Below, one piece after another: positions 1 through 12,036 of a stretch of 12,559 nt of DNA. The notes below the pieces were generated by a model. The model was not told the origin of the DNA. It worked only from the letters and a program-made list of their open reading frames with translations, and ran no database searches. Both the position numbers and the translations under genes were made by a program. Source of the DNA: Gallionella sp. (GTDB taxonomy: Bacteria; Pseudomonadota; Gammaproteobacteria; Burkholderiales; Gallionellaceae); contig SCPW01000357.1 of assembly GCA_004298605.1 (NCBI GenBank), forward strand, positions 1 to 12,559, given 5' to 3'. Each line of letters begins with the position of its first letter. Position 1 is the stretch's first letter.

Positions 1-19
1 GGACACGGGCTTTTTTTTC
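1..19 (+). terminator. Probable 3' half of a rho-independent terminator cut by the window edge
   Basis: The first ten bases (GGACACGGGC) are GC-rich and run straight into eight T residues. This is the form of the 3' stem arm and U-tract of an intrinsic terminator. The matching 5' arm, GCCCGTGTCC, would lie just outside the window, so the stem cannot be confirmed. If right, a gene to the left is transcribed rightwards and ends here. Confidence 0.4.
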
Positions 20-208
20 AAAAAAAAGGTCTGAAAACATATTGACATCTTCAAATAATCCACAAAGCGAGGGAATTCGCCATTTCTTGCCAGCCGCCCC
101 ACAATAAAATCTGCAACTTACGATAACATGTTGTTTTACAAGTGTTTTATTACTACACAAAAAATAGGCAACGTAAGAAAAGTCCTTAATGTACGCCAAG
201 TTAAAGGG

Positions 209-2889: not shown

Positions 2890-4888
<1,999 letters not shown>

Positions 4889-6376: not shown

Positions 6377-7783
6377 CTACACCGACCACCCAGACCATAC
6401 CGAGCGGCCTGTCGGCAACCACACGGTGAAAACACTCCCTTTGCCGACTTCGCTTTCCACCTCGATCCGCCCGTGGTGTTTCTGCATGATGCCATATGAC
6501 AGCGACAATCCCAGACCCGTCCCCTTGCCAACCGGTTTGGTGGTAAAGAACGGGTCGAAGATGCGCTTGAGATTTTCCGGCGGGATGCCTTTTCCCGTAT
6601 CGGCAACCTGGATGAAAACCTCATCGCCCCGCTGCCCGGTGCGGATGGTGATAACCCCTTTTTCGGGAATCGCATGTGACGCGTTGACCAGCAGGTTCAT
6701 GAATACCTGGTTGAGCTGCGACGGCAGGCACTCCACTTCCGGGATTTTGCCGTACTCTTTTTTCACTTCCGCATGGTATTTGATTTCGTTCCATACAATG
6801 TTGAGCGTGCTGTCTATCCCTTTGTGCATATCCACCCATTGCCACTCATCCTGAGCATCCACGTGCGAGAATTCTTTCAGGTCCTGGACGATCTTTTTCA
6901 CGCGGGTGATGCCATCGCGCGATTCTTTCATCAACATCTGCACATCTTCCCTGAGAAACGCCAGATCCTTTTGCTGTTTTGCGGCGCGCACTTTGGCGCG
7001 CTCGGCCTCCGGCATCGCCGCTTCGGCATTTTCATACACGTCGAACAGCTCAAAAATATCCTTGAGATATTGCTCCAGCGAACCCAGGTTGGAATAGACA
7101 AAGCCGATCGGGTTGTTGATCTCGTGCGCCACCCCGGCGGAGAGCTGCCCGATCGAAGCCAGCTTTTCGGACTGGAGCAACTGCCCCTGCATCTGCTCCA
7201 CTTGCTGGTTGGCCAAACGGATTTCTTCATTCATCCTGGACAGCGCCGCGATACGCTGCCGGTGCATGACGTGCAGGCGCGCATTTTCGATCACGACAGA
7301 AATCAGACCTATCATGACGGAGCCTCTCGCGAGATCGTCGCTTGTATAGGGAGGCAGCCCTTCCTTGTGGTTCACACTCAAGACGCCCATTATTTTCCCT
7401 TCCGATTTGAGCGCCCAGCACATCGCCGATACCGGCTTGGGCGCCTTGTCGCGCACCAGGTTGGAAAACCTCGGGTCGTCGCGCAAATCGCCGTTGAGCA
7501 GCAGGTCTTCGCCATGCTCCGCCACCCAGCCGAGGATGCCCTGCCCGAGCTCGACCTTGCTGCCGATGGCCTGCACCGGAATGTCGATACCGGCGACGAT
7601 GCCGAGGCTGCCGCCGTCTTCATCGGCCAGCGCGAGCGTGCCGCTCTTGCCCTCGAAACCCCGCACAATATGTTCGAGTATCTGCCGCTGCACCGCTTCG
7701 GCCTGCCCGCCAAGCGCGCCGCTCTGCCCCAGCCGGTAGAGGTCATAGACCCAGGATAGTTTGGTGACTTCTTGCTGTGACAT
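6377..7783 (-). CDS. GAF-domain sensor histidine kinase
   Basis: A 468-residue sensor kinase with no membrane segment, so it probably acts in the cytoplasm. Order: GAF domain (about residues 22-172), coiled coil (175-208), HisKA with the H-box GVAHEINNPIGF and phospho-acceptor His220, a long helical insert rich in charged residues (240-300), then the HATPase domain. That domain has N-box NQVFMNLLVNASHAI (358-372), G1 DTGKGIP (395-401), F-box FDPFFTTKP (409-417) and G2 GKGTGLGLS (419-427). Ribosome site GGGAGG is six bases before the ATG. The C-terminal part is about three quarters identical to the partial kinase at 12082-12559. It follows the HDOD gene by 18 bases. The regulator encoded next (4900-6222) is the obvious partner, but the GAF ligand is unknown. 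Confidence 0.93.
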   Translation of the reverse strand: MSQQEVTKLSWVYDLYRLGQSGALGGQAEAVQRQILEHIVRGFEGKSGTLALADEDGGSLGIVAGIDIPVQAIGSKVELGQGILGWVAEHGEDLLLNGDLRDDPRFSNLVRDKAPKPVSAMCWALKSEGKIMGVLSVNHKEGLPPYTSDDLARGSVMIGLISVVIENARLHVMHRQRIAALSRMNEEIRLANQQVEQMQGQLLQSEKLASIGQLSAGVAHEINNPIGFVYSNLGSLEQYLKDIFELFDVYENAEAAMPEAERAKVRAAKQQKDLAFLREDVQMLMKESRDGITRVKKIVQDLKEFSHVDAQDEWQWVDMHKGIDSTLNIVWNEIKYHAEVKKEYGKIPEVECLPSQLNQVFMNLLVNASHAIPEKGVITIRTGQRGDEVFIQVADTGKGIPPENLKRIFDPFFTTKPVGKGTGLGLSLSYGIMQKHHGRIEVESEVGKGSVFTVWLPTGRSVWSGWSV

Positions 7784-9006: not shown

Positions 9007-12000
9007 TCAATTCTTTTCCGCGAACGCCAGCACTATGCCGCGCCCTTGCGACATGGCTCCCATGTGATAACACCAGAATTCCATGCGCCGCCCATCCGCG
9101 AGCTTGCACTCGAGCCCGCTGGTTGCGCAGGGAGAGCCGTCCAGGCACGCCAGCATCCCGCCCGGCAAGCGCTCCTCGGCGAAACAGCCCTGCAACGGGC
9201 CATCGCCGTCACGCGCAAATATCCGGTTGGCGACATGGTTGGCTACCGCGATCAGCCCGTCTTCGCCCACACCGATCACACCGACCGGCAACTGCTCCAA
9301 AATTTCCTGCGAGACCTGCAGGATATTCAGGTTGCGCAACGCCTCCACAGTTTTCTCGTCGACGCGCTCTTCAAGCTGGTGTTTGGCCTCTTCCAGGCGC
9401 CTGTTTGACGCCAGCAACTCGGCGGTCAGACGGTCTTTTTCACTGCTCAGCTCAAAGTACTCAAAGGCTTTCCGGACATTTTCGCGCAACAGGTCGTCTT
9501 CCCACGGCTTGGTCAGGAATTTATAAATCGCGCCCCGGTTGATCGCCTCGGTGATGGATTGCAGTTCGGTATAGCCGCTCAGCACAATGCGCACGGTATC
9601 CGGGTACAGCTCCTTGACCTTGCTCAAAAAATCGGTGCCGCACATTTCCGGCATACGCTGGTCGGAGATGATGACGCCCACCGGGTGCGCCGCCAGCAAC
9701 TCCATGCCCTGGCGGGCGCTGGTGGCGGTGAGAATCCGGTATCCGTCGCGGCGCAACAGGCGCTTGAGCGCGGACAGGATATTTTCCTCGTCGTCCACCA
9801 GCAGCAGCGTGCGCCCCGAGTTCATTTCCGGCCGGTTGAGCGGTCGCCCTTCGGTGAGCAGGGCGGTATATTCCCCTGCCGGCAAAGGCTTCGAATAATA
9901 ATAGCCCTGCATTTCGTCGCAGCGGTTGTTCAGCAGGAAGGCCAGTTGCGCTTCGGTTTCCACGCCCTCGGCAATCACTTTCATTTTCAGGTTATGCGCC
10001 AGGTCGATGATGGTGCGCGTAATCAGGGCATCGTCGGGATCGGTCGCAATATCGCGGACAAAGGACTGGTCGATTTTCAACGCATCCGTGGCAAAGCGCT
10101 TGAGATAATTCAGGCTGGAATGCCCGGTGCCGAAGTCATCCACCGACAGCCGCACACCCAGCGATTTCAGCCCGCGCAACATTTGGACGGCTCTGCCCAC
10201 GTCTTTCATGATGGTGCTTTCGGTGATCTCCAGCTCCAGGAATTCCGGCTCAAGCCCGGTTTCTCCGAGTATCTGCTGCACCACCCCGCAAAGATCCTGG
10301 CGGTGAAACTGGATCGCCGAAAGATTGACCGCCACGCGGCATGATTTCATCCCCATGTCCCGCCAGGCCTTGGCCTGGTTGCAGGCGGCGCGCAGCACCC
10401 ATTCCCCGACCGGCACAATCAGGCCGTTTTCCTCGAGCATGGGAATGAAATCCGCCGGGGAAATCAGGCCCCGCTCCGGATGCTGCCAGCGCAGCAACGC
10501 TTCCGCGCCGATGATCTCACCGGTGTGCAAATTTACCTGCGGCTGATAAAACAGTTCAAATTCGTAATTTTCCAGCGCGCGGTGCAACCCGCTTTCAAGC
10601 TGCATGTCGTGCTGCACGCGCCGGTTCATTTCTGCCTGGAAAAAATGAAACTGGTTGCGCCCGTCTTTCTTCGCCTGATGCAGCGCTGCCGCCGCATTCC
10701 TGAGCAGCTCCTGCGCGTCTTCGCCGTCGGCGGGAGAAACCGCGATGCCGATGCTGGCGGTCAAATAAACCTGCTGCCCGTTGATCCAGAACGGCTCGAC
10801 CAGCGCCCCGAGCACTTTCTTCGCCACCACCTTGGCATCGTCGGCGGAAGTCATGCTGAGCAGGATCATCACAAATTCGTTGCCGCCGACGCGACCGACC
10901 GTATCGCTCTCGCGCAAGCCCTCGCGCAAACGCCCCGCCACCAGCTTGAGCAACACATCGCCATACGAAGGGCCGAGGCTATCGTTGATCATCTTGAAGC
11001 GGTCCAGGTCGATCAGCATCGTCGCCACCGTGCCTTCGCCGCGCCGCGACAGGGTGTAGGCGTAGTCGATCCGGTCGTAGATCATGCTGCGGTTCGGCAA
11101 GCCGGTCAGCGCATCGTGCTGCGCCAGATATTGCGCGCGTTTTTCCGCCGTCTTGTATGCGGTGATGTCCTGCACCATGAAGAGGAGGCGCGTCTGCTGC
11201 CCTTCCGTCTGCGCCCTTGAAATGTCGGCCAGAAAGTATCGCGTGCCCAATGGGTCGTGGCGCTCAAAAGCCAGCCCCGAGCGCATTTTCCCGTGATCGA
11301 GGACCCCCTGAAGCTCACCGGTCATGTCCCCATCCGTCAATCCCAGCAGCCTGGGCACCGTCAGCCCGGTGCAGGTTTCCGCCGCGCCCAGATCGAACAT
11401 GCGCAGCAACGCATCGTTCACCGACTGCACTTTCAGTTGCGAATCCACCACCGCCAGGCCGAAAGGTATGCCGGCAATAATTTGTTCGGTATATCTCTTT
11501 TCCCGGACAATCGCCTGGTGCTCCGCATGAAAATACGTGTCGAGCGCCAGCTCCATATCGAGAAGAATGATTTTGAGCAGCGCGCTGTAGGTGGCGATAC
11601 ACTTTTCCGTGTCCCCGTCCAGCAACTGGAAAATGATGGGCATGATCTCGCCCATATATTTGCGGTAAGCCCCGATATACCACTTGGGGGACAGCCCGAC
11701 ACGCTGGTAGATCATCCCGACGCGCAGGCGGTTCTCTATGTAACCCGAGCCATATTCGCCCGAGGTGAGCTGGCTGAAATAAGCGGATTGCGTACATTTG
11801 AGGCGCTCCAGCTTCGCGTCGTCGCCGAACAGCGGGACGATCTCGGAGAAATGCTTCAGATGGTCATAAAACGCCGTGCTGAATGAATCGCGCCCCGCCT
11901 CCAGGCGCACGTGCAAATCCTTGAGCAACGCGGCATCCGCCTCGGTGAATTCGAGAAACGCCTTGCGCACCGCCACCTCGGCAGAGTCTATACCCAGTTC

Positions 12001-12036
12001 TTTTTGAAGGGCGTTATCTTCGAATTGCTCATTCAT
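9007..12036 (-). CDS. Globin-coupled GGDEF-EAL response regulator with PAS domains
   Basis: A 1009-residue c-di-GMP signalling protein without membrane segments. Domains in order: globin sensor (about residues 10-175), PAS (184-297), GGDEF (300-465), EAL (480-725), receiver (742-860), coiled coil (860-905), PAS (910-1009). The GGDEF site reads GGNEF (384-388) with an inhibitory RxxD site, RESD, at 375-378. The EAL domain looks active: EALLRW (512-517), DDFGTGHSS (633-641) and EGVETE (690-695). The receiver has VDDE, Asp792 in ISDQRMPE and Lys843 in LTKPWE. In the globin, the position of the proximal heme His reads Tyr110 (RVGMIYQRVGLSPKWY). The last PAS has five Cys (951, 964, 970, 977, 989). 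AAGGAG lies seven bases before the ATG. It probably degrades c-di-GMP under phosphorylation and ligand control; direction of regulation is unknown. Confidence 0.95.
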   Translation of the reverse strand: MNEQFEDNALQKELGIDSAEVAVRKAFLEFTEADAALLKDLHVRLEAGRDSFSTAFYDHLKHFSEIVPLFGDDAKLERLKCTQSAYFSQLTSGEYGSGYIENRLRVGMIYQRVGLSPKWYIGAYRKYMGEIMPIIFQLLDGDTEKCIATYSALLKIILLDMELALDTYFHAEHQAIVREKRYTEQIIAGIPFGLAVVDSQLKVQSVNDALLRMFDLGAAETCTGLTVPRLLGLTDGDMTGELQGVLDHGKMRSGLAFERHDPLGTRYFLADISRAQTEGQQTRLLFMVQDITAYKTAEKRAQYLAQHDALTGLPNRSMIYDRIDYAYTLSRRGEGTVATMLIDLDRFKMINDSLGPSYGDVLLKLVAGRLREGLRESDTVGRVGGNEFVMILLSMTSADDAKVVAKKVLGALVEPFWINGQQVYLTASIGIAVSPADGEDAQELLRNAAAALHQAKKDGRNQFHFFQAEMNRRVQHDMQLESGLHRALENYEFELFYQPQVNLHTGEIIGAEALLRWQHPERGLISPADFIPMLEENGLIVPVGEWVLRAACNQAKAWRDMGMKSCRVAVNLSAIQFHRQDLCGVVQQILGETGLEPEFLELEITESTIMKDVGRAVQMLRGLKSLGVRLSVDDFGTGHSSLNYLKRFATDALKIDQSFVRDIATDPDDALITRTIIDLAHNLKMKVIAEGVETEAQLAFLLNNRCDEMQGYYYSKPLPAGEYTALLTEGRPLNRPEMNSGRTLLLVDDEENILSALKRLLRRDGYRILTATSARQGMELLAAHPVGVIISDQRMPEMCGTDFLSKVKELYPDTVRIVLSGYTELQSITEAINRGAIYKFLTKPWEDDLLRENVRKAFEYFELSSEKDRLTAELLASNRRLEEAKHQLEERVDEKTVEALRNLNILQVSQEILEQLPVGVIGVGEDGLIAVANHVANRIFARDGDGPLQGCFAEERLPGGMLACLDGSPCATSGLECKLADGRRMEFWCYHMGAMSQGRGIVLAFAEKN

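Follow-up and report, generated by a model that had tools for sequence, protein, structure and literature searches.

The DNA analysed here, referred to as the window, is a stretch of 12,559 nucleotides (positions 1 to 12,559 of contig SCPW01000357.1) from the draft genome of a Gallionella sp. (GCA_004298605.1). Its minus strand carries, at 9007..12036, an open reading frame of 1009 residues which, according to the ORF list and Pfam, has the layout globin–PAS–GGDEF–EAL–REC–tail. The sensor globin (Protoglobin, residues 18–172, 11521..11985) matches Pfam PF11563 with 133.6 bits for a curated cut-off of 25 bits (E 8.1e-39 with the whole protein), and its assignment is supported by an AlphaFold2 model and by fold matches in the PDB. 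It is followed on the same strand by a PAS domain (PAS_4, residues 190–293, 11158..11469), a GGDEF domain (residues 305–462, 10651..11124), an EAL phosphodiesterase domain (256 bits, residues 484–717, 9886..10587) and, in the C-terminal tail, a receiver (REC) domain (residues 745–854, 9475..9804), so that a signalling output is joined to an N-terminal sensor globin, as in globin-coupled sensors. A PAS-like piece at residues 910–942 is weakly supported when the whole protein is submitted to Pfam; the tail scanned alone returned the REC domain only.

The likely minus-strand genes between 4900 and 12558 are mostly signalling genes: the end of a histidine kinase, the globin protein, a 102-aa ORF without Pfam match, an HDOD protein, a GAF–histidine kinase and a REC–HD-GYP protein. 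They possibly form one cluster. On the plus strand, odd Pro/Gly/Arg-rich stretches (e.g. one of 12 residues), which look like in-frame repeat insertions, occur in the LpxK ORF (1475–2722) and in the next ORF (2890–3822), the latter being KdsB-like by eye.

In globin-coupled sensors the heme ligand is taken to be the proximal His, and the presence of the fold is commonly read as a sign of O2 sensing. The original prediction was that the globin of the window has Tyr at this very position, and alignment to sensors of known structure confirms it. A phmmer search against PDB chains listed five hits, all of them covering the globin domain. With HemAT (1or4) the alignment is gap-free across the pocket: it pairs Tyr110 (codon TAC, 11707..11709, minus strand like the residues below) with the proximal His123, Tyr57 (11866..11868) with the distal-pocket Tyr70, Thr82 (11791..11793) with Thr95 on the distal side, and Trp119–Tyr120 (11677..11682), which belong to a conserved PKWY motif, with Trp132–Tyr133. 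The remaining four chains listed also have His at the column of Tyr110. The roles of Tyr70, Thr95 and His123 in HemAT are taken from PMC13401364; the counterpart residues are H98 and Y43 in DosC according to PMC5549716, and H112, Y57 and S82 in PccGCS according to PMC12805357. A neighbouring His as the proximal residue is ruled out: there is none between residues 97 and 120, where the HemAT alignment has no gap. Thus, the window protein lacks the proximal heme-ligating His of canonical globin-coupled sensors and has the distal Tyr and the Thr/Ser of the O2 pocket. The motif pattern, written with TAY at this codon, occurs once in the window and in none of 200 shuffles.

The AlphaFold2 model of the globin (mean pLDDT 82, pTM 0.77) serves as a fold check and not as a pocket model, because the underlying alignment held five sequences only. 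Its best fold matches are the heme sensor globins of AfGcHK, HemAT, Thermosynechococcus and Geobacter, and the ranges aligned with HemAT (15..166 with 28..178) would place residue 110 at about residues 122–123 of 1or4_B.

Of 150 family genomes, 38 have a globin match; the matches lie at 52 places, one of them in the window. His occupies the proximal position in all 29 relatives read first (the best place of each genome that received a locus, L003–L031) and, with all 51 other family places fetched, in 50 of them; the last one, L221, is a stop-broken frame with no letter at the column. In the 76 genomes of the genus that were covered, there is no further sequence of the species and no globin closer than 74% to that of the window. 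The nearest globin domains are 74–76% identical; where the window reads TAC, the six nearest read CAC (five) or CAT (one), the step from CAC to TAC being a single transition. The codon beside it also differs from all six (ATC in the window versus GTT). His in the family relatives is one of the signs named as speaking against the original prediction, and it leaves room for a very recent mutation or for a consensus error in a single draft genome.

The proteins that are alike from the globin through the EAL domain are L105 (72% identity over 735 aa), L106 and L107 (70% over about 720). Judging kinship by the globin alone was rejected: L103 and L104, whose globins come closest (75.5% over residues 18–172), are only 45–55% identical in the GGDEF and EAL domains. 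Such closely related globin domains on unrelated GGDEF–EAL modules, as seen from the comparison of L103 and L104 with L105–L107, point to domain swapping or shuffling among sensors.

We then looked for Tyr at the proximal position in other lineages. A scan of one genome per species, which may leave out the genome under study or any that is very close to it, gave nine exact matches to the motif with TAY. Five of these were rejected as chance matches, there being no globin at the loci; the other four are true sensor globins, all in histidine kinases: three from Methylotenera, of which two come from isolate records, and one from Poribacteria (L035). With the globin domain of M. mobilis as the query, matches were obtained in 15 of 187 genomes of the Methylotenera family; the nine places at 64–100% identity to this domain (its own included) encode the same kinase type, six with Tyr and three with His (L090, L091, L092). 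Tyr is kept in six species of Methylophilaceae: M. mobilis 13 and M. oryzisoli, both isolates, one Methylotenera MAG and three further genomes (loci L032, L037 and L039 in Methylotenera; L086, L088 and L089). All nine Methylophilaceae kinases L084–L092, His and Tyr forms alike, have Lys at the position of HemAT Thr95, a possible distal ligand. In Poribacteria, 6 of 84 genomes have a globin match, and the Tyr case is a singleton whose sole close relative, L116 (71%), has His. The look at close homologues proposed with the original prediction gave no Tyr within the family; Tyr does occur in more distant sensors, isolates included.

Overall, the 231 loci yielded 195 distinct globin domains, short fragments from L081, L127 and L221 having been dropped and 19 weaker listed places lying outside the loci read out. 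The residue at the column is His in 183, Tyr in eight, Gln in two and Leu in one, and one domain has no letter there; these counts are enriched for Tyr and are no measure of its frequency among sensors, since Tyr was the reason for turning to Methylotenera and Poribacteria and the genome-wide scan used the Tyr pattern alone, without a matching His count. The Leu form (CTT; L192, G533:C69:6678-7348) has an intact motif and keeps the distal Tyr. The two Gln forms, L094 (G598) and L195 (G479), have a disturbed motif and are candidate heme-free globin sensors.

A tree of 76 globin domains was built without column 110; 5 of the 81 rows, comprising a fragment and far-diverged sequences, were left out (L081, L094, which has Gln, L096, L098 and L102). 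Three His/Tyr changes are needed, and the starred branches force all three: separate His-to-Tyr changes took place in the window protein, in the six-member clade of Methylophilaceae globin–histidine kinases and in the Poribacteria kinase. Note that L035 sits on a long branch whose place was flagged as unsure by the tree program, and that its His-bearing sister L116 is outside the tree.

To find out whether the globin of the window is decaying, we used the 32 columns in which 72 His-bearing globin domains show conservation of at least 90%; many of these come from the window's own family, so that the columns suit the window globin. The latter breaks H110 only: none of the 31 others is changed, Tyr57 and Trp119–Tyr120 included, and 36 of the 72 His-bearing rows break none of the 32. 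This bears out the claim that the surrounding motif is kept and the domain is not decayed. The end branch of the window globin, at 0.16, is of ordinary length: the paths leading to its two sisters measure 0.13 and 0.14. By hand, the ratio of globin to EAL differences is 1.35 for the window versus L105 and 1.51 for L105 versus L106, and that of globin to GGDEF differences is 1.12 and 0.78, respectively. The picture is therefore mixed, the window globin being somewhat over-diverged relative to GGDEF and not relative to EAL. A decayed pseudogene is ruled out by the open ORF and the intact conserved globin columns; the lack of clear signs of decay does not by itself prove constraint at Tyr110.

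The Methylophilaceae Tyr clade looks older than the swap in the window. Phe56 is replaced by Leu in all six members, the distal Tyr by Ser57 in four, and residue 120 is His in two. Its globins are under purifying selection, with shifted or mildly relaxed constraint: globin dN/dS is 0.02–0.11 in all 15 Tyr–Tyr pairs, compared with 0.072 and 0.078 in the two computable pairs out of three His–His pairs, while the ratio of dN in the globin to dN in the rest of the protein, calculated by hand, is at least 2.3 in 13 of the 15 Tyr–Tyr pairs (the remaining two have 1.2 and 0.4) and 0.9–1.2 in the three His–His pairs. These figures are rough, because dS is almost saturated and, in one pair, the kinase part may have recombined.

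Active diguanylate cyclases have the active-site motif GG[DE]EF. The window protein has the degenerate GGNEF in its place (10873–10887), together with an I-site-like RESD (10903–10914). GGNEF as a second lesion in the window lineage was rejected: it is common to the His-bearing orthologues L105, L106 (ORF at 7082) and L107, and hence predates the Tyr swap. A c-di-GMP phosphodiesterase is recognized by the EAL motif and the downstream catalytic motifs, and inspection of the EAL domain found EALLRW, NLS, EITES, DDFGTG, KID, EGVE and QG. Since the cyclase motif is degenerate and the EAL motifs are intact, the predicted net output is probably c-di-GMP hydrolysis.

Sequences related to the C-terminal tail were found at E 1e-40 or better in 47 of the 150 family genomes, the window's included; many lie in short open frames of about 280–390 aa, and others end frames of more than 1000 aa. 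One of the latter, in G126, is a long open frame 74% identical over the tail, with an EAL domain upstream and an HDOD-like gene downstream by eye, and the notion that the REC tail is unique to the window protein was rejected on this basis. The make-up of the window protein suggests that a globin–PAS–GGNEF–EAL front recombined with an EAL–REC back. An internal ATG (MNSGRT, residue 738) opens the REC tail (9007–9825, minus strand), giving the impression of a once separate REC gene fused to an EAL gene; a similar EAL–REC fusion is present in G126.

How, then, might such a sensor work? In Hb M and in the myoglobin variant H93Y, ligation by Tyr tips the iron towards the ferric state and makes a stable complex with O2 less favourable. 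The reading that we favour, with a confidence approaching even, is that the window protein, a globin-coupled c-di-GMP signalling protein, has undergone a natural change from His to Tyr and most likely holds ferric heme through tyrosinate. The sensor globin would still fold and keep its distal Tyr pocket, offering Tyr110 to the iron of a heme that would be five-coordinate, ferric and bound through tyrosinate. Under such ligation Fe(III) would be the preferred state and a stable Fe(II)–O2 complex would be disfavoured, and the domain would therefore report redox state, heme supply, NO or peroxide, not O2. Judging from the residue change, the protein should be unable to act as a normal reversible O2 sensor, O2 sensing being changed or abolished. 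The signal would pass through the PAS domain to the GGDEF–EAL module, of which the GGNEF part is probably unable to make c-di-GMP and the EAL part probably hydrolyses it, and the REC tail would provide a second, phosphorylation-type input. There are precedents for the chemistry: PMC12494546 describes Corynebacterium hemophores that bind ferric heme via a tyrosyl linkage and have EPR spectra likened to those of myoglobin H93Y, and PMC7457136 reports Tyr at F8 in four Daphnia globins (HbC, E, F and K), whose binding of O2 its authors doubt. The spectra given in PMC12494546 for the tyrosine-ligated hemophores show a Soret band near 405 nm, a further band near 624 nm and a low-field EPR signal split near g 6.6 and 5.3. 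That the proximal link matters for output is indicated by PccGCS, in which, according to PMC12805357, detaching the proximal ligand from its helix (Gly for His, with imidazole added) lowers communication to the cyclase. In the open-licence literature covered, which lacks most subscription papers, we came across no globin-coupled sensor described as having Tyr as its proximal residue.

More broadly, tyrosinate-ligated sensor globins may be a real, repeatedly evolved class of heme sensors, in which a C-to-T transition turns an O2 sensor into a ferric-heme, redox or NO sensor that is kept through several speciations, as in Methylophilaceae, with subsequent remodelling of the distal pocket; we propose this tentatively and regard it as rather doubtful. 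Several points stand against the reading that we favour: the pocket drift and the raised globin dN of the Methylophilaceae clade also fit heme loss, the kin of the window protein have His, the Poribacteria case is a singleton with a His-bearing relative, and the recurrence of Tyr may partly reflect mutation bias, as CAC to TAC is a single transition.

The main rival to ferric-heme ligation by Tyr110 is a globin devoid of heme, acting as an apo structural or dimerisation module or sensing another small molecule, as proposed for Bacillus RsbR. We consider this unlikely, while recognizing that it has a precedent in the RsbR globins without heme residues, one of which was crystallised with a fatty acid (PMC4976288), and that the further pocket changes of the Methylophilaceae Tyr clade and the existence of Leu and Gln forms are in its favour. 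In the window globin itself, however, the rest of the conserved columns are intact, with Tyr57 and Trp119–Tyr120 in place, the end branch is ordinary and the divergence relative to the other domains is mixed.

Two further explanations would make the Tyr of the window a matter of its own lineage or of its genome record, and both appear improbable. One is a very recent natural loss-of-function mutation, leaving the sensor blind or locked, with decay yet to show: a single transition in a singleton among its kin, with no other conserved globin column changed, is what it would leave, and the added pocket changes of the Methylophilaceae clade show what accompanies such a swap; yet the long ORF runs without interruption, its EAL motifs are intact, and three separate Tyr cases, one of them extending across six species, argue that the state can persist. 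The other, to which we give about as little credit, is that the true residue is His and that the draft genome shows Tyr through an error of consensus or assembly or through the allele of a minor strain. The genome is 85.8% complete and 4% contaminated, in 462 contigs, and the 76 genus genomes covered offer no second sequence of the species and no globin domain nearer than those described above. Against this, Tyr is found at the same place in other lineages, isolate genomes included, a base error at exactly this codon would be rare a priori, and the adjoining codon differs from the nearest six as well. We thus regard the His-to-Tyr swap as a natural phenomenon on three separate branches of the tree, with a putative chemistry and an unlikely residual error in the window genome. 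A recurrent natural swap with His-bearing partners in related species supplies ready natural pairs, with which one can test how the iron ligand sets the signal sensed and its passage to c-di-GMP or kinase outputs.

The window protein resembles the heme globin-coupled sensors (HemAT, DosC/YddV, BpeGReg, PccGCS and AfGcHK) in its N-terminal sensor globin fold, its distal Tyr and its signalling output, and its best PDB matches by sequence and by fold are of this type. It differs from them in having Tyr in place of the conserved proximal His, and a GGNEF–EAL–REC output instead of an active cyclase, chemotaxis or kinase module. The Methylophilaceae globin–PAS–histidine kinases share Tyr at the same position, independently arisen; unlike the window protein, they have a histidine kinase output, Lys at position 82 and Leu56, and have lost the distal Tyr in four of six cases and changed WY to WH in two of six. 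The Poribacteria globin–histidine kinase likewise acquired Tyr independently and keeps the distal Tyr and Thr82, but its output is different, the identity is 32% and seven other conserved columns are changed. Outside sensor globins, Tyr also occupies F8 in the Hb M variants, which are disease alleles. It does so too in the Daphnia globins HbC, E, F and K (PMC7457136) and in myoglobin H93Y (PMC12494546), neither being sensor globins and the latter being engineered. Finally, the non-heme globins of Bacillus RsbR, as presented in PMC4976288, share with the window protein a sensor globin fold without the heme-ligand residue; in RsbR the distal Tyr is not conserved either, whereas in the window protein only the proximal residue is changed, His being absent and Tyr57 present.
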